Shown here piece by piece: positions 26,619 through 55,029 of a stretch of DNA of 64,000 nt. This DNA is from Geobacter sp. SVR (lineage in GTDB: Bacteria > Desulfobacterota > Desulfuromonadia > Geobacterales > Pseudopelobacteraceae). The stretch lies in NCBI RefSeq assembly GCF_016865365.1, contig NZ_AP024469.1, positions 186,001-250,000 on the forward strand, given 5' to 3'. The first letter of the stretch is position 1. Each line of letters starts with the position of its first letter. A program made the translations under genes and the position numbers. The notes below the pieces were generated by a model. It saw nothing but the letters and a program-made list of their open reading frames with translations. It was not told the origin of the DNA and searched no databases.

Positions 26619-26662
26619 GGTAAGAGTGAAATGAGTGTGAGCAAATTGTGAAAGAATTGTGA
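26619..26662 (-). promoter_or_regulatory. Four tandem 11-bp repeats, response-regulator site, unit 1
   Basis: On the minus strand: TCACAATTCTT, TCACAATTTGC, TCACACTCATT, TCACTCTTACC, in exact 11-bp phase. The same arrangement lies upstream of the operon encoding the adjacent two-component system (54769-54812). This is the geometry bound by OmpR/PhoB-type dimers. Copies: 33565-33608, 40511-40554, 47459-47502. Confidence 0.75.
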
Positions 26663-30749: not shown

Positions 30750-31435
30750 TCAAAAATACTGCCAAACGAACCAACCTCCAACCAAAGCTACTATAGACCC
30801 ACTTACTCGTTTTGCCCAAAGGGAGAAGTTTACGACTCCCCGTGCTTTGACAAATCCTTCGACAAAGCCGGTGAACGTGCCAGCAAAGAGCATCAGCAGG
30901 CAATGGCCTATGGCATAGCTGAACAGGAGTGCGATACCATAAAACACCTGACCTTTTCCGGCGACCAGCGTCAGCAGTACTACCAGTACCGGAGTGGCGC
31001 AGGGTGAGGAAACAATCCCGAAGAATAGCCCCAGCAGAAACGCACCGACAATTCCGCCTTGCTTTGGTTTGAAGTCCCGTTTAATCGGCAGTCGAATCTC
31101 ATACAACCCCATCAACTGGCCACCCATGACCAATGCAATGGTTCCTGCGATCAAATACCAAGGCCCTCCCAGAGTGCCGAACATGGTCCCCAAAGACCGG
31201 CTGCCGCACCAAAGGCGGTGAAGGTCAGCGACAACCCAAGAACAAAAACCAGGGAATAACGAAAGGCCTTCCACTTGTCGCCATCGCTGTAGCCGCCTAC
31301 AAATCCGACCACCAGCGGGATGGTTGCCAGCACGCAGGGGGAGGCGGATGAAAGCACCCCGGCCAGGAACACCGCCCCGAAAGCCACCAGCGGATAGAGC
31401 GTAATAATCTGTTCGATATTATCGAGAAAGGTCAT
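30750..31435 (-). pseudogene. CcdA/ArsG-like transporter, unit 2, frameshifted
   Basis: A run of four A in unit 1 is three here (31192-31194), shifting the frame after about residue 80. Two overlapping pieces remain: 31151-31435 (N-terminal) and 30750-31274 (C-terminal). Units 1, 3 and 4 are intact, so an assembly error is possible. Confidence 0.8.
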
Positions 31436-33517: not shown

Positions 33518-33686
33518 GGCCAATTACCTCCTTACAAGATGTTTGATACAGTTGAACAGTAACAGGTAAGAGTGAAATGAGTGTGAGCAAATTGTGAAAG
33601 AATTGTGATATCAGTCCGGGGAAGAGAGCTTGACAAGCTCGGTAATACACAATACCATGTAATAGTGTTTTGCCCAAGGAGGCACA

Positions 33687-34337: not shown

Positions 34338-36259
34338 ATGGTTCGACAAGATGATTCGCGAAACGTGCAGGAAATCCTGATCTTTACGCTTGTTCCGGTA
34401 ATAGTGGGAGTGCTGACCCTGGCCGCTTGGCTATTGGGGCGTTGGCAGGTCGACCCTGCGTTTCTGGCTGCCGGACTTGCCCTAATTGCCACTGTTTTCG
34501 GTGGATGGCAGCGCTTTCTGGCGGGCTTTCGTGACATCGCACACCGCAAGATCACGGTCAACGTATTCGTGACAATAGCTATTTTCGTTACCATAGCCGC
34601 CGGAGAGTTTGTACCTGCGGCGGTGATCATTCTGATTATGGCCGTGGTCGGAGCTTTGGAGTCGTACACGCTCGACAAGACACGCCGGAGTATCCGTGGC
34701 CTGCTTGACCTCACCCCGCCGATGGCAAACGTGCGGCGCGGCGATGAGGAAGTCTCAGTTTCCGTAGCCGAACTGCAGACCGGAGATATCGTGATAGTAC
34801 GACCGGGTGATCGCATTCCAGTGGACGGCATAATCACCGTGGGCTCGGCGACCGTTAACCAGGCACCCATCACCGGAGAATCCATGCCGGTGGAGAAACT
34901 CAAGGGCCACGAGGTCTTTGCCGGTACCCTGAATGAGAGCGGTCGTCTTGAGATACGCACCACCAAGATCGGCGCAGACACCACTCTTGCCAGAATAGTT
35001 CACTTGGTCGAAGAAGCGCAGGAGTCCAAAGCGCCCATTCAAGGGATCGCCGACCGTTTTACCGTATGGTTCCTTCCTACCGTGCTCATACTTGCAGGTA
35101 TCGGGTATCTGACTTCAGGCGAGGTCAAAATAGCCGTCGCCATTCTGCTGGTTGCATGTCCCTGCGCTTTCGCCATCGCGACACCTTCGGCAGTGGCAGC
35201 AGGAATTGCCAATATGGCCCGCCGGTCTGTGCTCATCAAAGGTGGTATCTTCTTCGAAATCGCGGGTAAGATTAACTCTCTGGTCATTGACAAAACCGGT
35301 ACTCTCACCTTGGGTCGTCCGAAAGTCCTGGAAGTGATCAGCTGCGAATGCGTGTCGGAAAACGAGGTGCTTCGTCTGGCTGCCATAACTGAAAAGTACT
35401 CGGAGCATCCTTTGGCAAAAGCGGTGATGGCTTTGGCCAAGGAACGAGCACTTGAGATACCGGACCCCGATGAGTTCAGAATCGAGGTTGGCAAAGGAGT
35501 CGAAACTACCCAGGATGGACGGGAGATTGTTGTTGGGAGGGATGTTTTTCTACGAGGACGGGGATCGCTATTCCCGCTCAAATTGAACAGGCCCTGACTG
35601 CTCAATCCGAGTTAGGAAGGACGGCGATCCTGGTCGCCTGTGACCACAAAGTTGTTGGACTCCTGTCAATCGCGGATGAAGTAAAGCCGGAGACAGCAGA
35701 CGCGATTGCTTCACTCAAGTCGCTTGGCGTGGGCAACATTACCATGTTGACCGGCGATAATGCCAGGGTTGCACAGGCCGTAGCGGCCCAGATCGGGGTG
35801 GACGAATTCCGGGCCGAGCTCATGCCGCAGGATAAGCAGTCCGCCATCCAGGAGATGAAAAACGAAGGCAAGACCGTAGCCATGGTCGGTGATGGCATCA
35901 ATGATGCTCCTGCTCTGGCGCTCGCCGATGTAGGCATTGTGATGGGAGGGACCGGCTCAGACATCGCCATTGAGGCGGCGGATGTGACACTGATGGACGG
36001 CAACCTCTCGCGTCTAGTCGAATTTGTGCAGATGTCCCGGAAGGTGTTGCGGCGGATCAAGCTCAATATATTCTTTTCCATAATCTATAACGCTATCGGC
36101 CTGACCTTGGCTATGCTCGGGCACCTGACGCCGGTTATGGCGGTCATATTCCAGGAAGCGGGCTGTGTCACAGTCGTACTCAGCTCCACGTTGCTCCTCT
36201 GGGCCAAGGTTCCCGGCCCGAAGTTACGACATGCACCTGCGCTTAAAGGAACCACATGA
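34338..36259 (+). pseudogene. P1B-type ATPase, unit 2, frameshifted
   Basis: Four G instead of five (35560-35563) shift the frame after residue 409 and stop it at 35597. The first piece keeps CPC and DKTGT but loses GDGIND and TM7/TM8; the rest is readable from about 35598 to 36259. Confidence 0.85.
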
Positions 36260-40463: not shown

Positions 40464-40632
40464 GGCCAATTACCTCCTTACAAGATGTTTGATACAGTTG
40501 AACAGTAACAGGTAAGAGTGAAATGAGTGTGAGCAAATTGTGAAAGAATTGTGATATCAGTCCGGGGAAGAGAGCTTGACAAGCTCGGTAATACACAATA
40601 CCATGTAATAGTGTTTTGCCCAAGGAGGCACA

Positions 40633-41283: not shown

Positions 41284-43205
41284 ATGGTTCGACAAGATGA
41301 TTCGCGAAACGTGCAGGAAATCCTGATCTTTACGCTTGTTCCGGTAATAGTGGGAGTGCTGACCCTGGCCGCTTGGCTATTGGGGCGTTGGCAGGTCGAC
41401 CCTGCGTTTCTGGCTGCCGGACTTGCCCTAATTGCCACTGTTTTCGGTGGATGGCAGCGCTTTCTGGCGGGCTTTCGTGACATCGCACACCGCAAGATCA
41501 CGGTCAACGTATTCGTGACAATAGCTATTTTCGTTACCATAGCCGCCGGAGAGTTTGTACCTGCGGCGGTGATCATTCTGATTATGGCCGTGGTCGGAGC
41601 TTTGGAGTCGTACACGCTCGACAAGACACGCCGGAGTATCCGTGGCCTGCTTGACCTCACCCCGCCGATGGCAAACGTGCGGCGCGGCGATGAGGAAGTC
41701 TCAGTTTCCGTAGCCGAACTGCAGACCGGAGATATCGTGATAGTACGACCGGGTGATCGCATTCCAGTGGACGGCATAATCACCGTGGGCTCGGCGACCG
41801 TTAACCAGGCACCCATCACCGGAGAATCCATGCCGGTGGAGAAACTCAAGGGCCACGAGGTCTTTGCCGGTACCCTGAATGAGAGCGGTCGTCTTGAGAT
41901 ACGCACCACCAAGATCGGCGCAGACACCACTCTTGCCAGAATAGTTCACTTGGTCGAAGAAGCGCAGGAGTCCAAAGCGCCCATTCAAGGGATCGCCGAC
42001 CGTTTTACCGTATGGTTCCTTCCTACCGTGCTCATACTTGCAGGTATCGGGTATCTGACTTCAGGCGAGGTCAAAATAGCCGTCGCCATTCTGCTGGTTG
42101 CATGTCCCTGCGCTTTCGCCATCGCGACACCTTCGGCAGTGGCAGCAGGAATTGCCAATATGGCCCGCCGGTCTGTGCTCATCAAAGGTGGTATCTTCTT
42201 CGAAATCGCGGGTAAGATTAACTCTCTGGTCATTGACAAAACCGGTACTCTCACCTTGGGTCGTCCGAAAGTCCTGGAAGTGATCAGCTGCGAATGCGTG
42301 TCGGAAAACGAGGTGCTTCGTCTGGCTGCCATAACTGAAAAGTACTCGGAGCATCCTTTGGCAAAAGCGGTGATGGCTTTGGCCAAGGAACGAGCACTTG
42401 AGATACCGGACCCCGATGAGTTCAGAATCGAGGTTGGCAAAGGAGTCGAAACTACCCAGGATGGACGGGAGATTGTTGTTGGGAGGGATGTTTTTCTACG
42501 AGGACGGGGATCGCTATTCCCGCTCAAATTGAACAGGCCCTGACTGCTCAATCCGAGTTAGGAAGGACGGCGATCCTGGTCGCCTGTGACCACAAAGTTG
42601 TTGGACTCCTGTCAATCGCGGATGAAGTAAAGCCGGAGACAGCAGACGCGATTGCTTCACTCAAGTCGCTTGGCGTGGGCAACATTACCATGTTGACCGG
42701 CGATAATGCCAGGGTTGCACAGGCCGTAGCGGCCCAGATCGGGGTGGACGAATTCCGGGCCGAGCTCATGCCGCAGGATAAGCAGTCCGCCATCCAGGAG
42801 ATGAAAAACGAAGGCAAGACCGTAGCCATGGTCGGTGATGGCATCAATGATGCTCCTGCTCTGGCGCTCGCCGATGTAGGCATTGTGATGGGAGGGACCG
42901 GCTCAGACATCGCCATTGAGGCGGCGGATGTGACACTGATGGACGGCAACCTCTCGCGTCTAGTCGAATTTGTGCAGATGTCCCGGAAGGTGTTGCGGCG
43001 GATCAAGCTCAATATATTCTTTTCCATAATCTATAACGCTATCGGCCTGACCTTGGCTATGCTCGGGCACCTGACGCCGGTTATGGCGGTCATATTCCAG
43101 GAAGCGGGCTGTGTCACAGTCGTACTCAGCTCCACGTTGCTCCTCTGGGCCAAGGTTCCCGGCCCGAAGTTACGACATGCACCTGCGCTTAAAGGAACCA
43201 CATGA
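41284..43205 (+). pseudogene. P1B-type ATPase, unit 3, frameshifted
   Basis: Same one-G deletion as unit 2 (42506-42509); the first frame stops at 42543. Confidence 0.85.
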
Positions 43206-44642: not shown

Positions 44643-45329
44643 TCAAAAATACTGCCAAACGAACCAACCTCCAACCAAAGCTACTATAGACCCACTTACT
44701 CGTTTTGCCCAAAGGGAGAAGTTTACGACTCCCCGTGCTTTGACAAATCCTTCGACAAAGCCGGTGAACGTGCCAGCAAAGAGCATCAGCAGGCAATGGC
44801 CTATGGCATAGCTGAACAGGAGTGCGATACCATAAAACACCTGACCTTTTCCGGCGACCAGCGTCAGCAGTACTACCAGTACCGGAGTGGCGCAGGGTGA
44901 GGAAACAATCCCGAAGAATAGCCCCAGCAGAAACGCACCGACAATTCCGCCTTGCTTTGGTTTGAAGTCCCGTTTAATCGGCAGTCGAATCTCATACAAC
45001 CCCATCAACTGGCCACCCATGACCAATGCAATGGTTCCTGCGATCAAATACCAAGGCCCTCCCAGAGTGCCGAACATGGTCCCCAAAAGACCGGCTGCCG
45101 CACCAAAGGCGGTGAAGGTCAGCGACAACCCAAGAACAAAAACCAGGGAATAACGAAAGGCCTTCCACTTGTCGCCATCGCTGTAGCCGCCTACAAATCC
45201 GACCACCAGCGGGATGGTTGCCAGCACGCAGGGGGAGGCGGATGAAAGCACCCCGGCCAGGAACACCGCCCCGAAAGCCACCAGCGGATAGAGCGTAATA
45301 ATCTGTTCGATATTATCGAGAAAGGTCAT
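44643..45329 (-). CDS. CcdA/ArsG-like transporter, unit 4
   Basis: Intact, same as 23801-24487. Confidence 0.88.
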   Translation of the reverse strand: MTFLDNIEQIITLYPLVAFGAVFLAGVLSSASPCVLATIPLVVGFVGGYSDGDKWKAFRYSLVFVLGLSLTFTAFGAAAGLLGTMFGTLGGPWYLIAGTIALVMGGQLMGLYEIRLPIKRDFKPKQGGIVGAFLLGLFFGIVSSPCATPVLVVLLTLVAGKGQVFYGIALLFSYAIGHCLLMLFAGTFTGFVEGFVKARGVVNFSLWAKRVSGSIVALVGGWFVWQYF

Positions 45330-45709
45330 CTGAGCCCTGCTGTCTTCAATTCCTTTAGAATGTCCGACTTTTCCATAAATCCGGTATGACGCTTCACCTC
45401 TTTGCCCTGGGCATTGAAGAAGATCTGGGTCGGGATCATCTGAATTCTGAATTTTTTAGCAGCAGCCTCGTTTTCCCACACATCAATGAACAGCACTCCG
45501 GCTTTCCCTTTGTATTCAGTGGAAAGTCCCTCCAGAATCGGCGCCATTTTCTTGCAGGGAATGCAGGCACGGGCGCCTAGGTCAATGACCGTCGGTTTAC
45601 CGGATGACAGGGCTTGTTTGACTGCGGCATCGGTTGCAGATGGAAGTTCGGCGTATGCCGTGGCTGTTGTCAGCATGATCAATATGAGCAGTTGAAGTGT
45701 CTTCATCAT
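45326..45709 (-). CDS. Exported thioredoxin-family protein, unit 4
   Basis: Same as 24484-24867. Confidence 0.9.
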   Translation of the reverse strand: MMKTLQLLILIMLTTATAYAELPSATDAAVKQALSSGKPTVIDLGARACIPCKKMAPILEGLSTEYKGKAGVLFIDVWENEAAAKKFRIQMIPTQIFFNAQGKEVKRHTGFMEKSDILKELKTAGLR

Positions 45710-45936
45710 GACAGCACCCCCATGATTTCCGCCACGGAAGCGACCTTGCCGGAAAACTTTACCTGTCCATCAACCACCAGCGCCGGTGTGCTCATGACAC
45801 CGTAAGACATGATTTTAGATATCTCTTCAACCTTGACGACATCTGCCGTCTTGCCACTCTCTTCCACTGCTTTCTTCACATTTTCATAAAGGGTCTTGCA
45901 TTTAGAACAGCCAGTGCCGAGCACTTCGATCTTCAT
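45706..45936 (-). CDS. TM0996-type small thioredoxin, unit 4
   Basis: Same as 24864-25094. Confidence 0.88.
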   Translation of the reverse strand: MKIEVLGTGCSKCKTLYENVKKAVEESGKTADVVKVEEISKIMSYGVMSTPALVVDGQVKFSGKVASVAEIMGVLS

Positions 45937-47015: not shown

Positions 47016-47411
47016 TTACCTGTTTTGATAGGCCGCCTGCATCCTTCCCATCCCTCTGCCCATTCCCATTCCACAGCCCATACCGCATCCTCCCCCGCCC
47101 GGACCCGGCAGGCCGTTACTGGTTGCGATGGTGGTAATTTTAGCCTGTAGATCGGTCATTTCTTTGGTGAGTGTCGCAACCCTGCCTGCGTCAACCGGCT
47201 GCTTGAGATACTCGTTGCGCAACTCAACTTTCTTGAGCATCATTTCGTTACGCAGAGTCGTGGTCTCGTCCTGAAACTTCTTGACAGCCTCGACACTGAC
47301 CGGCGTCCCTTGAGCGACCATGCCACCTCCGTACCCCCACGGCCCGGCAAAAGCTGTGCCTGCAAATGCCAAAAGCCCTACCCCGATTACTGTTGCTATG
47401 TTTGTTTTCAT
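47016..47411 (-). CDS. Spy/ZraP-like periplasmic protein, unit 4
   Basis: Same as 26176-26571. Confidence 0.82.
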   Translation of the reverse strand: MKTNIATVIGVGLLAFAGTAFAGPWGYGGGMVAQGTPVSVEAVKKFQDETTTLRNEMMLKKVELRNEYLKQPVDAGRVATLTKEMTDLQAKITTIATSNGLPGPGGGGCGMGCGMGMGRGMGRMQAAYQNR

Positions 47412-47580
47412 GGCCAATTACCTCCTTACAAGATGTTTGATACAGTTGAACAGTAACAGGTAAGAGTGAAATGAGTGTGAGCAAATTGTGAAAGAATTGT
47501 GATATCAGTCCGGGGAAGAGAGCTTGACAAGCTCGGTAATACACAATACCATGTAATAGTGTTTTGCCCAAGGAGGCACA

Positions 47581-47958
47581 ATGAATCAAAAAGAGAAAAC
47601 GGAACTACCTGCTTGTACCCTCAAGCCCACCCTGGAGGAACGGAGTCTGATTACTTCCACGGAGAGTGGAGAACTCGTAGCTTTGTTCAAAGTTCTCGCC
47701 AACGAGACACGGCTTCGTTTGCTTCACGCCTTGGCTCGCGCGGGAGAGTTGTGTGTGACGGAGCTGGCGGCTGCCGTGGGGATGAAGCCACAAGCTGTTT
47801 CCAATCAGTTGCAACGCCTTGCTGACCGAGGCATCATCATGTCCACCCGACAAGGAAACAACATATATTACCGTGTAGCTGACCCGTGTGCGCTCAGTCT
47901 CCTCAGCCTCGGTTTCTGCCTTGTCGAGGAGGCCAAGCAGCGCGTCGGCGGATTATAA
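47581..47958 (+). CDS. ArsR-family metalloregulator, unit 4
   Basis: Same as 26741-27118. Confidence 0.92.
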   Translation: MNQKEKTELPACTLKPTLEERSLITSTESGELVALFKVLANETRLRLLHALARAGELCVTELAAAVGMKPQAVSNQLQRLADRGIIMSTRQGNNIYYRVADPCALSLLSLGFCLVEEAKQRVGGL

Positions 47959-48231: not shown

Positions 48232-50154
48232 ATGGTTCGACAAGATGATTCGCGAAACGTGCAGGAAATCCTGATCTTTACGCTTGTTCCGGTAATAGTG
48301 GGAGTGCTGACCCTGGCCGCTTGGCTATTGGGGCGTTGGCAGGTCGACCCTGCGTTTCTGGCTGCCGGACTTGCCCTAATTGCCACTGTTTTCGGTGGAT
48401 GGCAGCGCTTTCTGGCGGGCTTTCGTGACATCGCACACCGCAAGATCACGGTCAACGTATTCGTGACAATAGCTATTTTCGTTACCATAGCCGCCGGAGA
48501 GTTTGTACCTGCGGCGGTGATCATTCTGATTATGGCCGTGGTCGGAGCTTTGGAGTCGTACACGCTCGACAAGACACGCCGGAGTATCCGTGGCCTGCTT
48601 GACCTCACCCCGCCGATGGCAAACGTGCGGCGCGGCGATGAGGAAGTCTCAGTTTCCGTAGCCGAACTGCAGACCGGAGATATCGTGATAGTACGACCGG
48701 GTGATCGCATTCCAGTGGACGGCATAATCACCGTGGGCTCGGCGACCGTTAACCAGGCACCCATCACCGGAGAATCCATGCCGGTGGAGAAACTCAAGGG
48801 CCACGAGGTCTTTGCCGGTACCCTGAATGAGAGCGGTCGTCTTGAGATACGCACCACCAAGATCGGCGCAGACACCACTCTTGCCAGAATAGTTCACTTG
48901 GTCGAAGAAGCGCAGGAGTCCAAAGCGCCCATTCAAGGGATCGCCGACCGTTTTACCGTATGGTTCCTTCCTACCGTGCTCATACTTGCAGGTATCGGGT
49001 ATCTGACTTCAGGCGAGGTCAAAATAGCCGTCGCCATTCTGCTGGTTGCATGTCCCTGCGCTTTCGCCATCGCGACACCTTCGGCAGTGGCAGCAGGAAT
49101 TGCCAATATGGCCCGCCGGTCTGTGCTCATCAAAGGTGGTATCTTCTTCGAAATCGCGGGTAAGATTAACTCTCTGGTCATTGACAAAACCGGTACTCTC
49201 ACCTTGGGTCGTCCGAAAGTCCTGGAAGTGATCAGCTGCGAATGCGTGTCGGAAAACGAGGTGCTTCGTCTGGCTGCCATAACTGAAAAGTACTCGGAGC
49301 ATCCTTTGGCAAAAGCGGTGATGGCTTTGGCCAAGGAACGAGCACTTGAGATACCGGACCCCGATGAGTTCAGAATCGAGGTTGGCAAAGGAGTCGAAAC
49401 TACCCAGGATGGACGGGAGATTGTTGTTGGGAGGGATGTTTTTCTACGAGGACGGGGGATCGCTATTCCCGCTCAAATTGAACAGGCCCTGACTGCTCAA
49501 TCCGAGTTAGGAAGGACGGCGATCCTGGTCGCCTGTGACCACAAAGTTGTTGGACTCCTGTCAATCGCGGATGAAGTAAAGCCGGAGACAGCAGACGCGA
49601 TTGCTTCACTCAAGTCGCTTGGCGTGGGCAACATTACCATGTTGACCGGCGATAATGCCAGGGTTGCACAGGCCGTAGCGGCCCAGATCGGGGTGGACGA
49701 ATTCCGGGCCGAGCTCATGCCGCAGGATAAGCAGTCCGCCATCCAGGAGATGAAAAACGAAGGCAAGACCGTAGCCATGGTCGGTGATGGCATCAATGAT
49801 GCTCCTGCTCTGGCGCTCGCCGATGTAGGCATTGTGATGGGAGGGACCGGCTCAGACATCGCCATTGAGGCGGCGGATGTGACACTGATGGACGGCAACC
49901 TCTCGCGTCTAGTCGAATTTGTGCAGATGTCCCGGAAGGTGTTGCGGCGGATCAAGCTCAATATATTCTTTTCCATAATCTATAACGCTATCGGCCTGAC
50001 CTTGGCTATGCTCGGGCACCTGACGCCGGTTATGGCGGTCATATTCCAGGAAGCGGGCTGTGTCACAGTCGTACTCAGCTCCACGTTGCTCCTCTGGGCC
50101 AAGGTTCCCGGCCCGAAGTTACGACATGCACCTGCGCTTAAAGGAACCACATGA
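48232..50154 (+). CDS. P1B-type heavy-metal ATPase, unit 4 (intact)
   Basis: Same as 27392-29314; with unit 1 the only complete copies. Confidence 0.93.
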   Translation: MVRQDDSRNVQEILIFTLVPVIVGVLTLAAWLLGRWQVDPAFLAAGLALIATVFGGWQRFLAGFRDIAHRKITVNVFVTIAIFVTIAAGEFVPAAVIILIMAVVGALESYTLDKTRRSIRGLLDLTPPMANVRRGDEEVSVSVAELQTGDIVIVRPGDRIPVDGIITVGSATVNQAPITGESMPVEKLKGHEVFAGTLNESGRLEIRTTKIGADTTLARIVHLVEEAQESKAPIQGIADRFTVWFLPTVLILAGIGYLTSGEVKIAVAILLVACPCAFAIATPSAVAAGIANMARRSVLIKGGIFFEIAGKINSLVIDKTGTLTLGRPKVLEVISCECVSENEVLRLAAITEKYSEHPLAKAVMALAKERALEIPDPDEFRIEVGKGVETTQDGREIVVGRDVFLRGRGIAIPAQIEQALTAQSELGRTAILVACDHKVVGLLSIADEVKPETADAIASLKSLGVGNITMLTGDNARVAQAVAAQIGVDEFRAELMPQDKQSAIQEMKNEGKTVAMVGDGINDAPALALADVGIVMGGTGSDIAIEAADVTLMDGNLSRLVEFVQMSRKVLRRIKLNIFFSIIYNAIGLTLAMLGHLTPVMAVIFQEAGCVTVVLSSTLLLWAKVPGPKLRHAPALKGTT

Positions 50155-50257: not shown

Positions 50258-50907
50258 TAATTTCCTTAGGGTAAACCCCCGGCTCTGCCGGGGGACCCCA
50301 ATAGTTTGACAGTTCCTGAAATATGTAGAAGCCTCCCTAACGTGAACCGCTCAAAGTACACGAAAAGGAGGCTTCAATGGACGACACACAAAGTTTATGC
50401 CACACGAAATGGGATTGCAAGTATCACGTTGTATGGATTCCAAAATGTCGCCGCAAGGTGCTGTTTGGTCGAATCCGGAAATATCTTGCCGACTTGTTTC
50501 ATAGTCTAGCCAGGCAGAAAGAGTGCAAGATAGTGGAAGGGCACCTTCAACCTGATCATATTCACATATTGATATCGATCCCACCAAAATACTCCGTTGC
50601 ACAGGTGATCGGTTTCATCAAGGGCAAAAGTGCAATCCATATTGCGCGAATGTACCTTGGTCAGAAGAAGAACTTTGCTGGTATGAGCTTTTGGGCACGT
50701 GGCTACTTTGTATCCACTGTCGGTGCTGACGAGGAAACAATTGCCAACTACATCAGGAACCAGGAAGACGAAGACAAACGTCTGGATCAATTGACATTTT
50801 TGCCCGAAGAATGACCACCACTCGTGGTGGTCAGATAATCTTTTGAAAAAACCGCTTCGAGCGGTTCACGACTTTGAAAGCCCCCGGCTTTGCCGGGGGA
50901 TGCTTAC
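50258..50907 (+). mobile_element. IS200/IS605-family element, copy 5 (right border)
   Basis: 650 bp. After its right end the sequence changes to TGTTTATCTG, 21 bp before the histidine kinase stop codon. This marks the right limit of the array. Confidence 0.9.
50377..50814 (+). CDS. tnpA: IS200-type transposase TnpA, copy 5
   Basis: Same protein as copy 1. Confidence 0.95.
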   Translation: MDDTQSLCHTKWDCKYHVVWIPKCRRKVLFGRIRKYLADLFHSLARQKECKIVEGHLQPDHIHILISIPPKYSVAQVIGFIKGKSAIHIARMYLGQKKNFAGMSFWARGYFVSTVGADEETIANYIRNQEDEDKRLDQLTFLPEE

Positions 50908-50928: not shown

Positions 50929-52281
50929 TCAATCCGGAATAAAAACTTGGAAACAGGCACCGTCTCCCGAATTATTAGCGGCAGTGATTGTGCCACCGTG
51001 AGCTTCGACAAGTTGCTTGACAATAGCCAACCCAACCCCCATCCCACTCTGAAATCCCCGGTAAAAACGCTCGAATATGAAGGGAAGGTCTTCTACTCGA
51101 ATCCCCCTTCCTGAGTCTTCAACGCTCATGACAACTCCATTCACGTTACGTCGTGCCCGAAGCGCAATACGTCCGTTCCCATCCACAGCCTTGACGGCGT
51201 TGCTGATGAGATTGAGAATGATCTGACTCAAACGGTCGGGATCGGCGTCAATGGTAATTTCCTCAGGAACGTCGAGTGTGAAGGCAACCTCTTGAGCCGA
51301 ACAGACAAAGCGCTCCACAATCGGTTCCAGAAAACTCCGGAGCCGGATCGACTCTTTTTTGAGGTTCATCGCGCTCGCTTCGGCCTGGCTTAGATCGTCC
51401 AGCGCACCAAGAATGCCGCGAAAGCGGTCCATCTCCCCCATGAGGAGGGTGAGTCGTCTCTGGTCGGCAGGGACCATGCCGTCAGCCATCTGCTCCACCT
51501 GCAGTCGCATGACGGTAAGCGGTGTGCGCAACTCATGGGCTGCGTTGGTCAACAGCCTTTTGCGGAGCAATTCCTGAGCGGCCAGGGCATCAGCCATCCG
51601 GTTGAAGGTGTCGGCCATGGTTCTGAATTCCCGCGTTCCCTCTTCTTTGATTCGCACGGTCATGTCACCGTCACGCAGGGATTGGGCAGCAGCAGTTAGC
51701 CGCTCGACAGGGCGAGTGATACGGCGGGAGAGAAATATACTCAATAGCATCGTCAATGAGCCGACAATCAACAGGGAGAGGAGCAGCAGGCGGTTACTGC
51801 GGGTCACAAAAACAAGGTCTTTATCAGGATTGGTGCAAAGTATCTCCAGTTGGCCAATCTCCTGGCCGTTATGGAAGAGCGGATATGCCGTGCCGGTACC
51901 AAAATCACATTTAATACCCCCTTTGGCATAGGAGAACACCCTTTTCTTCATTTGTGGCGACATCTGCTCGACCGCTTGTTGGACATCGATCACGGAATGT
52001 TTTTTAGTATCACTGACCCGGACTGCCAGTCCCATCATGTATGCCCAGACAACGTCGTCGGCCAGCGTGGCGGCATCCCAGCGACCCGTCTCGGCGTATT
52101 TCCCCTCCAGCCGCGCCATGACCCAATAGCTGCGATCCTCCATACGACCGCTCATAAAGGAACGGAAGTCGTTGACGATAAGTTGACGAACCAGCAGACC
52201 CGAGGAGAGACCGGCCAGGGCTATCAGCAGTAACAGGGCCGACAATCGTGACCAGAGAGTATCAGGAATCTTTAACGCCAT
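50929..52281 (-). CDS. Sensor histidine kinase with HAMP domain
   Basis: 450 aa: TM1 about 11-33, a periplasmic sensor region (34-163) containing two cysteines (C125, C149), TM2 about 164-185, HAMP, a HisKA domain with phospho-acceptor H249 (NAAHELRTPL) and a HATPase domain (NLISNAVKA, DSGRGI, GVGLAIVKQL). Its start overlaps the response-regulator gene by 20 bp, so they form a pair. The stop lies 21 bp from the IS array. A thiol- or metal-sensing role is suggested by the periplasmic Cys pair and context only. Confidence 0.93.
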   Translation of the reverse strand: MALKIPDTLWSRLSALLLLIALAGLSSGLLVRQLIVNDFRSFMSGRMEDRSYWVMARLEGKYAETGRWDAATLADDVVWAYMMGLAVRVSDTKKHSVIDVQQAVEQMSPQMKKRVFSYAKGGIKCDFGTGTAYPLFHNGQEIGQLEILCTNPDKDLVFVTRSNRLLLLSLLIVGSLTMLLSIFLSRRITRPVERLTAAAQSLRDGDMTVRIKEEGTREFRTMADTFNRMADALAAQELLRKRLLTNAAHELRTPLTVMRLQVEQMADGMVPADQRRLTLLMGEMDRFRGILGALDDLSQAEASAMNLKKESIRLRSFLEPIVERFVCSAQEVAFTLDVPEEITIDADPDRLSQIILNLISNAVKAVDGNGRIALRARRNVNGVVMSVEDSGRGIRVEDLPFIFERFYRGFQSGMGVGLAIVKQLVEAHGGTITAANNSGDGACFQVFIPD

Positions 52282-52972
52282 TGAAGCGATACCCCACGCC
52301 GTACACCGACTCGATGTAGACCGGATTCTTCGGCCGGTCGCCGATCTTGTGGCGGATGTTCTTGATATGGGCGTCTATGCAGCGGTCATAACCGTCGCAT
52401 GTGTACCCGAGTACTTTTTCCAGCAGTTCCTCGCGGCTGAAGACCTTGCCCGGAGTTGCAGCGATCCGCAGAAGCAATTTGAACTCTGTTGCCGAGAGTT
52501 CCACAGGGTTTCCGGATACGATGGCGTGAAAGCATTCAGGGTCGAGTAGTAGCGCTCCCTTGTTGAAGCTTAATTTTCCTGTCGCAGTTTCATGTATGGT
52601 GTCGATAGTACGCCTGAGCGCTATTTTCACCCGATACACCAGTTCACGGGCACTGAACGGCTTAACCACATAGTCGTCTGCGCCAAGCGAAAATCCGATC
52701 AGACGCTGTTCCTCGGAAGATTTGGCCGTGAGCATGATGACCGGGAAGTCTCCCAACCGTTTCAGTTCCTGGCAGACCAGTTCACCGGGGATGTCGGGGA
52801 GTGACAAATCGAGTACCACCAGCAAGGGTTGCTGATTCCGAGCATGCTCCAGCGCCTCTTGCCCACGTTCGTAGTGGTTCACCCGGTAGCCCGCCTCGGC
52901 CAGGTAGGCCGTCACTACTTCGGCAATTGTGGCATCGTCTTCAATAAGAAGAATGTAATCAGCTACTGACAT
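52262..52972 (-). CDS. OmpR/PhoB-family response regulator
   Basis: 236 aa. Receiver domain with phospho-acceptor D55 (VVLDLSLPD), acidic pocket E11-D12-D13, then a winged-helix DNA-binding domain ending VYGVGYRFNGV. OmpR-type regulators bind 11-bp direct repeats; two such arrays are in this window (54769-54812 and in each amplified unit). It follows the ArsP_1-type permease gene by 45 bp. Confidence 0.94.
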   Translation of the reverse strand: MSVADYILLIEDDATIAEVVTAYLAEAGYRVNHYERGQEALEHARNQQPLLVVLDLSLPDIPGELVCQELKRLGDFPVIMLTAKSSEEQRLIGFSLGADDYVVKPFSARELVYRVKIALRRTIDTIHETATGKLSFNKGALLLDPECFHAIVSGNPVELSATEFKLLLRIAATPGKVFSREELLEKVLGYTCDGYDRCIDAHIKNIRHKIGDRPKNPVYIESVYGVGYRFNGVKDS

Positions 52973-53017: not shown

Positions 53018-53965
53018 TTACAGGATTGCATTGAACAGATAACCTACGATGACAATTGCCGTCGCTACTGTGCCGAAAAAGACCGCCAGGAGACGGTTCT
53101 TTAGCACATTTTTAAGGATGATTGCCTCCGGCAGCGACAGTGCCGTTACCGCCATCATAAAAGCCAACACCGTACCTATTGCCATACCCTTCTCCATAAG
53201 AGCATGCACAATCGGAATTACCCCAGCAGCGTTAGAATAGAGCGGGACCCCGAGTGCAACAGCAATTGGAACGGCAAAGGGATTGTCACGCCCGGCCCAG
53301 CGCACCAGAAAATCGGCCGGTACATAGCCGTGGATGAAGGCCCCCAGGCCGACCCCGACCACCACATAAGGCCAGATCTTCTTCAGCAGATCCAGAGTGT
53401 ATTCACGGGCATAATTCAGTTTCTCCCGGAAATTCATCTGTACAATTTCAGCATTTCCGACTTGCATTTCCCAAACATAATCCTGAACGTACTTTTCCAT
53501 CTTCAGTTTGCCGATGACGATACCCGCGATAATCGCCACGACCAAGCCGGTGCCGATGTAGATAAGAGCAATCTTCCAGCCGAACAGCCCCCACAGCATG
53601 ATAAGTGCCACCTCGTTGACCATCGGCGAGGAGATCAGGAAGGAGAAGGTCACGCCCAACGGTACACCCGACTCAACAAAACCGATGAAGAGCGGAACCG
53701 CCGAGCAAGAACAGAAGGGGGTCACAATGCCCAGCAGAGCTGCCAGGATGTTACCCACATACTCCCGCTTGTGAGACAGCATGCGCTTGGTCTTTTCTGG
53801 AGGAAATGATGTGCGGATGACCGCTACAACATAGATGATAGTCGTTAACAGCAGGAAAATCTTCAGGGTGTCATAAATGAAGAAGTTGAGGGCCTCACCA
53901 GTTTGGCTGCCCTTCAGCAGGCCAAAAAGGGAAAAAGTAACGTAGTCAGCAAAGTTTTTGAGCAT
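53018..53965 (-). CDS. ArsP_1-family permease
   Basis: 315 aa with about eight to ten membrane segments. The conserved TPFCSCSAVPLFIGF motif (near residue 80) and ISSPMVNEVAL identify the PF03773 permeases, some of which (ArsP) export trivalent organoarsenicals through the paired Cys; others are linked to thioredoxin-like partners and unknown cargo. Located in one operon with a CcdA-like transporter and the two-component genes. Confidence 0.85.
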   Translation of the reverse strand: MLKNFADYVTFSLFGLLKGSQTGEALNFFIYDTLKIFLLLTTIIYVVAVIRTSFPPEKTKRMLSHKREYVGNILAALLGIVTPFCSCSAVPLFIGFVESGVPLGVTFSFLISSPMVNEVALIMLWGLFGWKIALIYIGTGLVVAIIAGIVIGKLKMEKYVQDYVWEMQVGNAEIVQMNFREKLNYAREYTLDLLKKIWPYVVVGVGLGAFIHGYVPADFLVRWAGRDNPFAVPIAVALGVPLYSNAAGVIPIVHALMEKGMAIGTVLAFMMAVTALSLPEAIILKNVLKNRLLAVFFGTVATAIVIVGYLFNAIL

Positions 53966-53979
53966 GATGCATACTCCTA

Positions 53980-54726
53980 CTAGAAGAACATTTTCAGCAG
54001 ATCAATTTTAAGGATGGACTTGAAAATGAAATAGACCCCGATAGTAATCATAACCAAACCACCAATCTTTTCCATCACAAACTGGATCTTGTCAAACCTC
54101 CTGATCCCCTTGATAAACCCGGTACATGTCCCAGCCAGAAGTATCGGTATGCTGCGTCCGGCTGCATAGCTGAACATTAACAGCGCGCCAAGCACAAAGC
54201 TGCCCTTAGCCGCAAGAAAGATAAGAACGGCAATAGTCACCGGGAGGGTACAGGGGGAGGCGGCAATGCCAAACGGCAGGCCAAGCAAAAAGGCACCGAC
54301 CGGGCCGCTTTGTTGTCGTACACCAATCCTTTCCATCAGATTAACTCCGTTGAAATTGATCAGATTGAGCATCCAAAATCCTAGCATGATGAAAATAAAG
54401 CAAACTGATCCTAGGAAAATTTTCATACCGATGGAGCCTTTTGCAAACAGTAGTTTGCTTTGCAGCAGCAGACCACCGGCATATCCTGAAATTCCACCCA
54501 AAACGGTTAGTACGATCGCAATTCCCATCACAAAACTTAAGGCCAGCAGAAACCCGTGCAGTCGTCGCGTATTATCCGCCTTGCTGACATATCCAACCAC
54601 CAGTGCAACTGTAGGAATGCTACAGGGGCTCAGACCACTCATGAGCCCCATGGTGAAGATTACCGGCAGAACCGTGAAAAGCCCGGCACCGACTATCATG
54701 TCCAGTTGACTAATTCCTGTTGTCAT
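53980..54726 (-). CDS. CcdA/DsbD-like transporter
   Basis: 248 aa with six membrane helices. Both Cys contexts are SPC: LMSGLSPCSIPTVALVVGYV and IAASPCTLPVTIAVL. It is related to the amplified CcdA/ArsG-like protein. ATG 54726 follows GGAGGAAC; the 88-codon extension to 54990 runs through the promoter repeats and is rejected. First gene of the operon with the permease and the two-component pair, so thiol reduction or metalloid export is under that system's control. Confidence 0.87.
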   Translation of the reverse strand: MTTGISQLDMIVGAGLFTVLPVIFTMGLMSGLSPCSIPTVALVVGYVSKADNTRRLHGFLLALSFVMGIAIVLTVLGGISGYAGGLLLQSKLLFAKGSIGMKIFLGSVCFIFIMLGFWMLNLINFNGVNLMERIGVRQQSGPVGAFLLGLPFGIAASPCTLPVTIAVLIFLAAKGSFVLGALLMFSYAAGRSIPILLAGTCTGFIKGIRRFDKIQFVMEKIGGLVMITIGVYFIFKSILKIDLLKMFF

Positions 54727-55029
54727 ACGATGTTCCTCCGTGCTAGCGTAGTTGCATGGAGGATCACACATCAATGTGAAACGAGCATGAGCTAAATGTG
54801 AAAACATTGTGAATTTGCACGGCGACGACATTACGCCAGGCTGTCCAGCAGTATGGCAGCACCTTTGTAATGCCCTTAAAGGGTAAATCGGCAATCTGAG
54901 TTGCAAACTACTGGAATGAAAGGTCATAAAATCAGCATTTGCCAGTATCTGTTGAATACTACGAATCATTTTGGCAGTGTTAGTCAACATTATAGACGGT
55001 ATTCTAGTAGCGCAGTGTCGAAGAGCGAT
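54727..55029. other. Non-coding gap between MOSC gene and CcdA-like operon
   Basis: About 300 bp. It holds the ribosome site and the 44-bp repeat array of the CcdA-like operon, plus a small CCCTT/AAGGG hairpin near 54870. No gene seen. Confidence 0.55.
54769..54812 (-). promoter_or_regulatory. Four tandem 11-bp repeats upstream of the CcdA-like/ArsP/two-component operon
   Basis: Minus strand: TCACAATGTTT, TCACATTTAGC, TCATGCTCGTT, TCACATTGATG. Each matches the corresponding repeat upstream of the amplified Spy-like gene in most positions and in exact 11-bp phase. This suggests one OmpR-type regulator for both, with autoregulation here. Confidence 0.75.

Follow-up and report, generated by a model that had tools for sequence, protein, structure and literature searches.

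Two gene clusters in the window, by which we mean the whole 64-kb stretch of DNA analysed here, carry a common 44-bp array of four direct repeats in front of them: a single-copy operon for a CcdA-like protein, an ArsP permease, a response regulator and a histidine kinase, and a Spy-like operon that is present in four tandem copies. Because the same switch stands at both clusters and, in dozens of relatives, beside the same kind of sensor and regulator, one stress sensor very probably controls both. The array is most likely a putative BaeSR-like operator for envelope or metal stress. Its sites, their spacing, their specificity genome-wide, their conservation and their link to a particular gene neighbourhood were established by computation. 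The first-pass annotation had proposed one sensor over a single-copy and an amplified operon, and this idea gains in silico support from the conserved operator, its neighbourhood and the relocated targets in relatives.

On the minus strand, positions 54812-54769 read TCACAATGTTT TCACATTTAGC TCATGCTCGTT TCACATTGATG, four 11-mers that each begin with TCA. Upstream of the amplified Spy-like genes the sequence is TCACAATTCTT TCACAATTTGC TCACACTCATT TCACTCTTACC, identical in all four (4/4) and starting, again on the minus strand, at 47502, 40554, 33608 and 26662. The first-pass annotation was therefore right that TCA-initial four-repeat arrays precede both operons, at 54769-54812 and at the four Spy sites, and its consensus is correct position by position: the ccdA and Spy arrays have 32/44 bases in common, and 20/32 outside the TCA columns. 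Agreement of at least 20/32 was reached by 4 of 200,000 random window pairs and by 3 of 200,000 letter shuffles. A search of the window for TCA-N8 x4 gave exactly five matches, the ccdA array and the four Spy arrays. The putative four-half-site operator of the CcdA-like/ArsP/regulator/kinase operon thus occupies 54769-54812 (patterns; model, 27.1 bits), and those of the amplified units lie at 47459-47502 in unit 4 (pattern; model, 27.5 bits), 40511-40554 in unit 3, 33565-33608 in unit 2 and 26619-26662 in unit 1 (pattern and model for each), all on the minus strand. Aligned sequence places an extended -10-like element, TGTGATCCT, directly after the ccdA array (54760-54768, minus strand), and another, TGTTACTGT, after the unit 4 array (47450-47458, minus strand). 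The ccdA hexamer, GATCCT, departs in its first base from the family's TANNNT, and a scan of the ccdA array found no sigma-70-type hexamer pair there.

The single-copy operon lies on the minus strand and begins with a 248-aa CcdA/DsbD_TM-like membrane protein (53980-54726; PF02683). Its open frame extends further upstream, through the array; homologues among the matches listed start at residue 3 or later of the 248-aa form. It is followed by an ArsP_1 family permease (53018-53965; PF03773, 277.9 bits), a BaeR-like response regulator of the OmpR/PhoB type (52262-52972; Pfam, NCBIfam and structure match) and a BaeS-like HAMP sensor histidine kinase (50929-52281; Pfam and NCBIfam). The regulator has a receiver domain (PF00072, 88.5 bits) and a winged-helix Trans_reg_C domain (PF00486, 84 bits), both above gathering, which bears out its earlier assignment to the OmpR/PhoB type. 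Full-length CcdA-like matches in relatives are at most 36% identical among the matches listed, and many of them are DsbD orthologues; a plasmid search for CcdA relatives returned 253 records, all below 60% identity, with the best 10 of the 253 below 33%. For the ccdA promoter there is no orthologous promoter for comparison. Of 147 genomes searched, counting this one, 114 have an ArsP match, at widely differing identities that reach 91% in relatives. Thioredoxin and DsbD orthologues of the amplified unit come after ArsP on the same strand in 17 of the 20 ArsP loci that we fetched; in the other three (L146, L149 and L156) they do not follow it.

The amplified region (22586-50814) consists of four tandem units of 6945-6949 bp, bounded by five identical copies of a 145-aa transposase. 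Each unit has a copy at its start (22586, 29535, 36480 and 43428), and a fifth, at 50377-50814 on the plus strand, closes the tandem array; we take the element to be of the IS200 type. Genome-wide there are 14 identical transposase copies, five of them in the window. In unit 4, the minus strand encodes a Spy/ZraP-like periplasmic protein (47016-47411), whose matches are weak: the identical unit-3 copy scores 22.5 bits with PF13801, below the gathering cut-off of 29.2, and 23.7 bits with the ZraP equivalog, below its cut-off of 200. Then come two secreted-looking conserved neighbours with no Pfam family in their unit-3 copies, P112 (46640-46975) and P103 (46288-46596), a 76-aa thiol-redox-like protein with a CxxC motif seen by eye (45706-45936), a thioredoxin with a signal-like start (45326-45709; Pfam and NCBIfam, unit-3 copy) and a DsbD-like membrane protein (44643-45329; NCBIfam, unit-3 copy), all on the same strand. 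Divergent from the Spy-like gene, on the plus strand, is an ArsR/SmtB-family regulator (47581-47958; NF033788 above cut-off, unit-3 copy), and a heavy-metal P-type ATPase (48232-50154, plus strand; TIGR01525 above cut-off) lies beyond it.

The units differ only in six single-base indel columns, all within short A, C or G runs, and show zero substitutions. Frameshifts, in each case at homopolymer runs, affect the P-type ATPase in units 2 and 3 (34338-36259 and 41284-43205) and DsbD in unit 2 (30750-31274); they may reflect noise in the sequencing or the decay of surplus copies. The amplification likely arose through recombination between flanking mobile-element copies. It copied the targets together with their putative operators and left the sensor in single copy. 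As the first-pass annotation had anticipated, it also multiplied the operator sites, since an identical array stands ahead of each of the four Spy-like genes.

A homologous island has been amplified again in G044 and G062 (L225 and L226), there together with the regulator. In these genomes a tandem duplication with a 6248-bp offset spans an ArsR-like gene, the regulator, the kinase, Spy and P112, operator included. The two copies in G044 are nearly identical, and the kinase genes of G044 and G062 differ at 1 of 1332 bases, so the duplication may be one event.

Across the 4,717,360-base genome, TCA-N8 x4 has 6 matches, the five window sites and C1:154036; the reversed pattern gave 0 matches in the whole genome, and simple arithmetic puts the chance expectation at about 0.6. 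A fuller pattern with up to three mismatches found only the five window sites, and a looser one added a single three-mismatch match, C1:2056753, where its reversed control gave 4. We also built a model, R1, of 57 positions from 39 sequences, using sequence only. It recovered the five window sites at E 1.4e-5 to 1.8e-5 and reported no further site in the genome up to E 10 (150 of 669 first-look candidates scored). Because 2 of the 39 training sequences are window sites, the scores of those sites are not independent, and the absence of other sites is the informative part. A motif scattered genome-wide had been named beforehand as a result that would speak against the regulon; it is not scattered, and the matches at C1:154036 and C1:2056753 are unrelated.

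By our count, relatives hold 51 strong kinase matches, 37-73% identical, of which the 40 loci that we fetched cover 42. A matrix of the window half-sites plus those of G091 found the array in 39 of these 40 loci, and a Spy-like or P112-like match lies close to the kinase in 39/40. No array overlaps a matched gene (0/39), and for 34 of the 39 the next Spy or P112 match is no more than 300 bp downstream. Of the remaining five, L224, L232 and L241 have a first frame after the array that is Spy-like by eye; no Spy-like frame was found after the array in L218 and L236. This matrix scored L233 lower than its shuffled versions and set L238 and L249 off by one repeat; these two were repositioned by eye for the alignment. 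L219 (G078) has no array in the fetched stretch; another part of its contig carries one next to a Spy gene. When the matrix was restricted to the eight window half-sites, its best match beat the reverse-complement and reversed-sequence controls in 40/40 loci each, the complement control in 39/40 (L233 loses) and the best of five Markov resamples in 39/40 (L219 loses). The restricted matrix missed the L233 array, and for 33 of its 40 best matches a Spy or P112 match lay at most 300 bp downstream. The loci are partly non-independent, with L225/L226 and L234/L242/L245 near-identical at the array. Nine kinase matches were left out (G072, G039, G034:C58, G069, G075, G061, G060, G073 and G037); eight of these nine genomes have a model match on the same contig, in G037 only at E 0.0097, and G072 has none.

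Going by gene order, we count 28 of the 40 loci in which the array comes ahead of the regulator-kinase pair and 11 in which it comes behind; autoregulation would thus be common, not universal. In G091 the regulator (82% identical), the kinase (73%), the array, Spy, P112, P103, thioredoxin and DsbD form one contiguous locus. Neither G001 nor G002, the two relatives from the same genus, has a strong kinase match or a model match, so the system is patchy close to home.

The alignment of 39 rows, A1, from which the near-identical L226 and L242 were omitted, has the consensus TCTTCACAATTGTTCACAATTnCTTCATAAnnnCTTCnCAnTnnTTTGnTAnnGTG with nine invariant columns. The first two half-sites are spaced 10 bp apart in 36 of the 39 rows, and only both window arrays and G091 have 11 bp here; the second and third spacings are normally 11 bp. 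The exact 11-bp phase described in the first-pass annotation therefore holds for both window versions and for G091, and not for the other 36 of the 39 sequences. A TANNNT -10-like hexamer stands at fixed columns in 37/39 rows, the exceptions being L240 and the ccdA site. As at sites of OmpR/PhoB-type regulators, the half-sites lie on the same strand 10-11 bp apart and, in silico, the array adjoins a -10 without a good -35, as scanned at the ccdA array only. This arrangement, a hexamer at fixed columns and no sigma-70 pair, fits an activator standing in for the -35. A strict TCAC-type pattern was also run over the 147 genomes (146 relatives and the window's own) and matched in 8 relatives; the matches in G062, G110, G115 and G128 are perfect or near-perfect tandem repeats, and the other four are in G017, G037, G053 and G117. 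It was too narrow a pattern, since a first spacing of 10 bp is the rule.

Model matches at E<=0.1 were present in 91 of the 147 genomes, many of them weak. Outside the training set, and with near-identical duplicates excluded, 15 of 16 matches at E<=1e-6 precede a Spy match by 49-154 bp; the sixteenth, G027:C13, is ahead of a membrane-protein and ABC-type gene pair. We fetched twenty stretches, mostly around second matches, and read the products by eye unless tblastn had matched them. In G022, G030, G042, G061 and G068 the array is directly upstream of P103, then thioredoxin and DsbD. These operons do not share a contig with the kinase, except in G022, where about 1.9 Mb separate the two; the window's target genes thus recur at another location. 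Two arrays in G053 stand upstream of Spy-like genes, and one in G049 is ahead of a membrane protein and a cation-efflux-like gene. Seven arrays stand ahead of ABC-transporter-like or outer-membrane/efflux-like genes (G022, G027 twice, G039, G043, G047 and G091). Arrays before efflux-like or ABC-transporter-like operons, seen at L292 (site 1594), L299 (site 3503), L291, L293, L295, L296 and L302, are possible extra members of the regulon. No clear target gene was found at the arrays of G005, G006 and G041.

Arrays in G105 and G121 are ahead of periplasmic-protein genes near a different kinase. Weak matches beside kinase matches were also seen in G096, G111, G115 and G116. Weak matches covering positions 13-56 were first read as Pho boxes; this reading was dropped as unproven, because the related array in G105 (L308, site 2479), the one member of that group examined closely, sits before a periplasmic-protein gene, divergent from another regulator-kinase pair. 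Among named genomes, for which 80 loci were fetched, the array was found in 3 of 31 loci searched. In L030, a Nitrospiraceae bin (regulator 59% identical), it precedes c-type-cytochrome-like and P112-like genes, and in L031 (regulator 56%) a Spy-like gene, both by eye; in both, it comes right after the kinase gene. L039 (Dethiobacter) gave a weak match, E 0.005, and the other 28 of the 31 loci had no array.

The system that this one most resembles is BaeSR of E. coli and Salmonella, which the accessible part of one account describes as an envelope-stress system with spy, mdtABCD and acrD as targets (PMC7657598). Two BaeR boxes, TTTTTCTCCATDATTGGC and TCTNCANAA, are given in the available portion of another (PMC3799227). 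Among solved structures, BaeR (4b09) matches the window regulator best. BaeR and BaeS are also the best NCBIfam models for the two proteins, which nevertheless fall far below the equivalog cut-offs: 200.7 bits vs 380 for the regulator and 195.6 (NF012163) vs 500 for the kinase. The regulators and E. coli BaeR have a recognition-helix motif in common, (D/E)R-x-(I/V)-D-(A/S)-H-(I/V)-K-N, which takes the form DRxIDxHIKN in the window regulator and is found in that form in E. coli BaeR as well. The half-site resembles the BaeR boxes. The exact sequence TCTNCANAA occurs in 27 of the 39 alignment rows, where the shuffled mean is 0.4, and in neither window array. A spy-like gene belongs to the putative regulon, as the array lies upstream of the Spy-like genes. 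Unlike BaeSR, the family here has four half-sites, its putative targets include ArsP, thioredoxin and DsbD, and no mdtABCD efflux operon is attached, the neighbours being CcdA, ArsP, Spy and redox genes.

When applied to E. coli K-12, the model scored the mdtA promoter at 16.5 bits, an ungapped match to half-sites 2-4 and the -10 (L252, 1931-1973); its best score on 100 kb of other K-12 control DNA was 7.4 bits. The spy gene, a known BaeR target, stayed at 7.2 bits, about as high as the control DNA itself came, and acrD at 5.3 bits, the top match of its 7-kb stretch and just upstream of the gene. Only mdtA stands out, then, and the system is like BaeR in its mode of action without belonging to that family. 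In ZraPSR and CpxP-CpxRA, too, a periplasmic Spy-fold protein is paired with a two-component system, much as a Spy/ZraP-like periplasmic protein is encoded beside the sensor pair here. ZraR, however, is an NtrC-type regulator, unlike the OmpR-type regulator of the window, and the Spy-like protein scores below the ZraP cut-off. The open-access titles and passages listed on BaeR/spy binding sites, on Geobacter regulators and on tandem amplification in Geobacter do not describe this operator. Our open-access searches returned nothing on Geobacter with ArsP, on a BaeR footprint at mdtA, on Spy/CpxP/ZraP in Deltaproteobacteria or on titration with gene amplification.

PhoB arrays sit where a -35 would be, as does the array here, and PhoB is likewise an OmpR-type regulator of direct repeats with an 11-bp period. 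The arrays could accordingly be bound by PhoB or another member of the OmpR/PhoB family, a reading that the weak matches beside a different two-component system, such as that of G105, would suit. We consider it unlikely. The arrays stand beside this one kind of kinase and regulator in 39/40 fetched loci, and a PhoB regulon would be expected to give several sites in the genome, where no other was found up to E 10. The genes are also different, and the Pho box, as set out in the available text of one source, consists of two 7-bp repeats, CTGTCAT, with a 4-bp spacer (PMC3333781), in contrast to the half-site TTCAYAATT of the present family.

The two window arrays might also be alike by descent only, as a copied promoter fragment, and one of them, more likely that of ccdA, might have ceased to function as a target. 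A recent common origin would agree with the extra base in the first spacing, which only these two arrays and G091 have, and the -10 of ccdA deviates. Against this, the likeness, judged by eye, ends at the array edges, and the TCA cores are kept in all four repeats of both, so that we regard descent alone as improbable too. A third reading assigns the array to the divergent ArsR-family regulator of the ATPase, since the Spy array falls within the Spy-ArsR intergenic region. This is very improbable: the array also occurs without a divergent ArsR gene, at the ccdA promoter and in loci of the order regulator, kinase, array such as L210. ArsR-family sites, moreover, are inverted repeats, unlike these four direct repeats. 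Chance resemblance of T/C/A-rich sequence, which the unrelated matches at C1:154036 and C1:2056753 and the 4 hits of the reversed control might suggest, is scarcely credible, because five of the six TCA-N8 x4 matches genome-wide are these very sites, and conservation across relatives, the genome-wide scans and the matrix controls already refute it.

We therefore return to the reading that the array is the operator of the regulator at 52262-52972, which would activate the CcdA and Spy operons, and that these targets were amplified without it; taken as a whole, this explanation is in our judgement highly likely. The response regulator is predicted to bind the 44-bp array as two dimers, head to tail on the four half-sites and on one helix face. 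Once bound next to a -10 that lacks a good -35, it would activate transcription. One operator would drive CcdA-ArsP-regulator-kinase, and because this operon includes the regulator and kinase themselves, we propose that the system is autoregulated. The other would drive Spy-P112-P103-redox-Trx-DsbD. As with BaeS, the signal that the kinase perceives is probably envelope stress caused by metal or misfolding, and a chaperone for the periplasm, thiol-redox proteins and a permease would come from the targets. Through tandem amplification between identical copies of the mobile element, the target operon would then have reached four copies, each with its operator, while the regulator stayed single.

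More tentatively, four phased BaeR-like half-sites and a -10 could form an ancient module that controls a periplasmic chaperone, thiol-redox and metal regulon from E. coli mdtA to Nitrospirota and, weakly, Dethiobacter. Autoregulation of the sensor might in that case offset titration by the three extra operators (twelve half-sites), and amplification of the targets without the sensor might be tolerated because the sensor is under the same operator.

Sequence by itself is enough to recognise this pair of regulator and putative operator throughout an order of bacteria, and the 57-position model points to no further site in this genome. The array ties the thioredoxin/DsbD module, and in this genome also the ArsP permease, to a Spy-type stress sensor. 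With four-fold targets and a single sensor, the window is a natural experiment on the way in which a two-component system deals with additional binding sites, and G044 and G062, where the regulator was duplicated with its target, are the contrast case.
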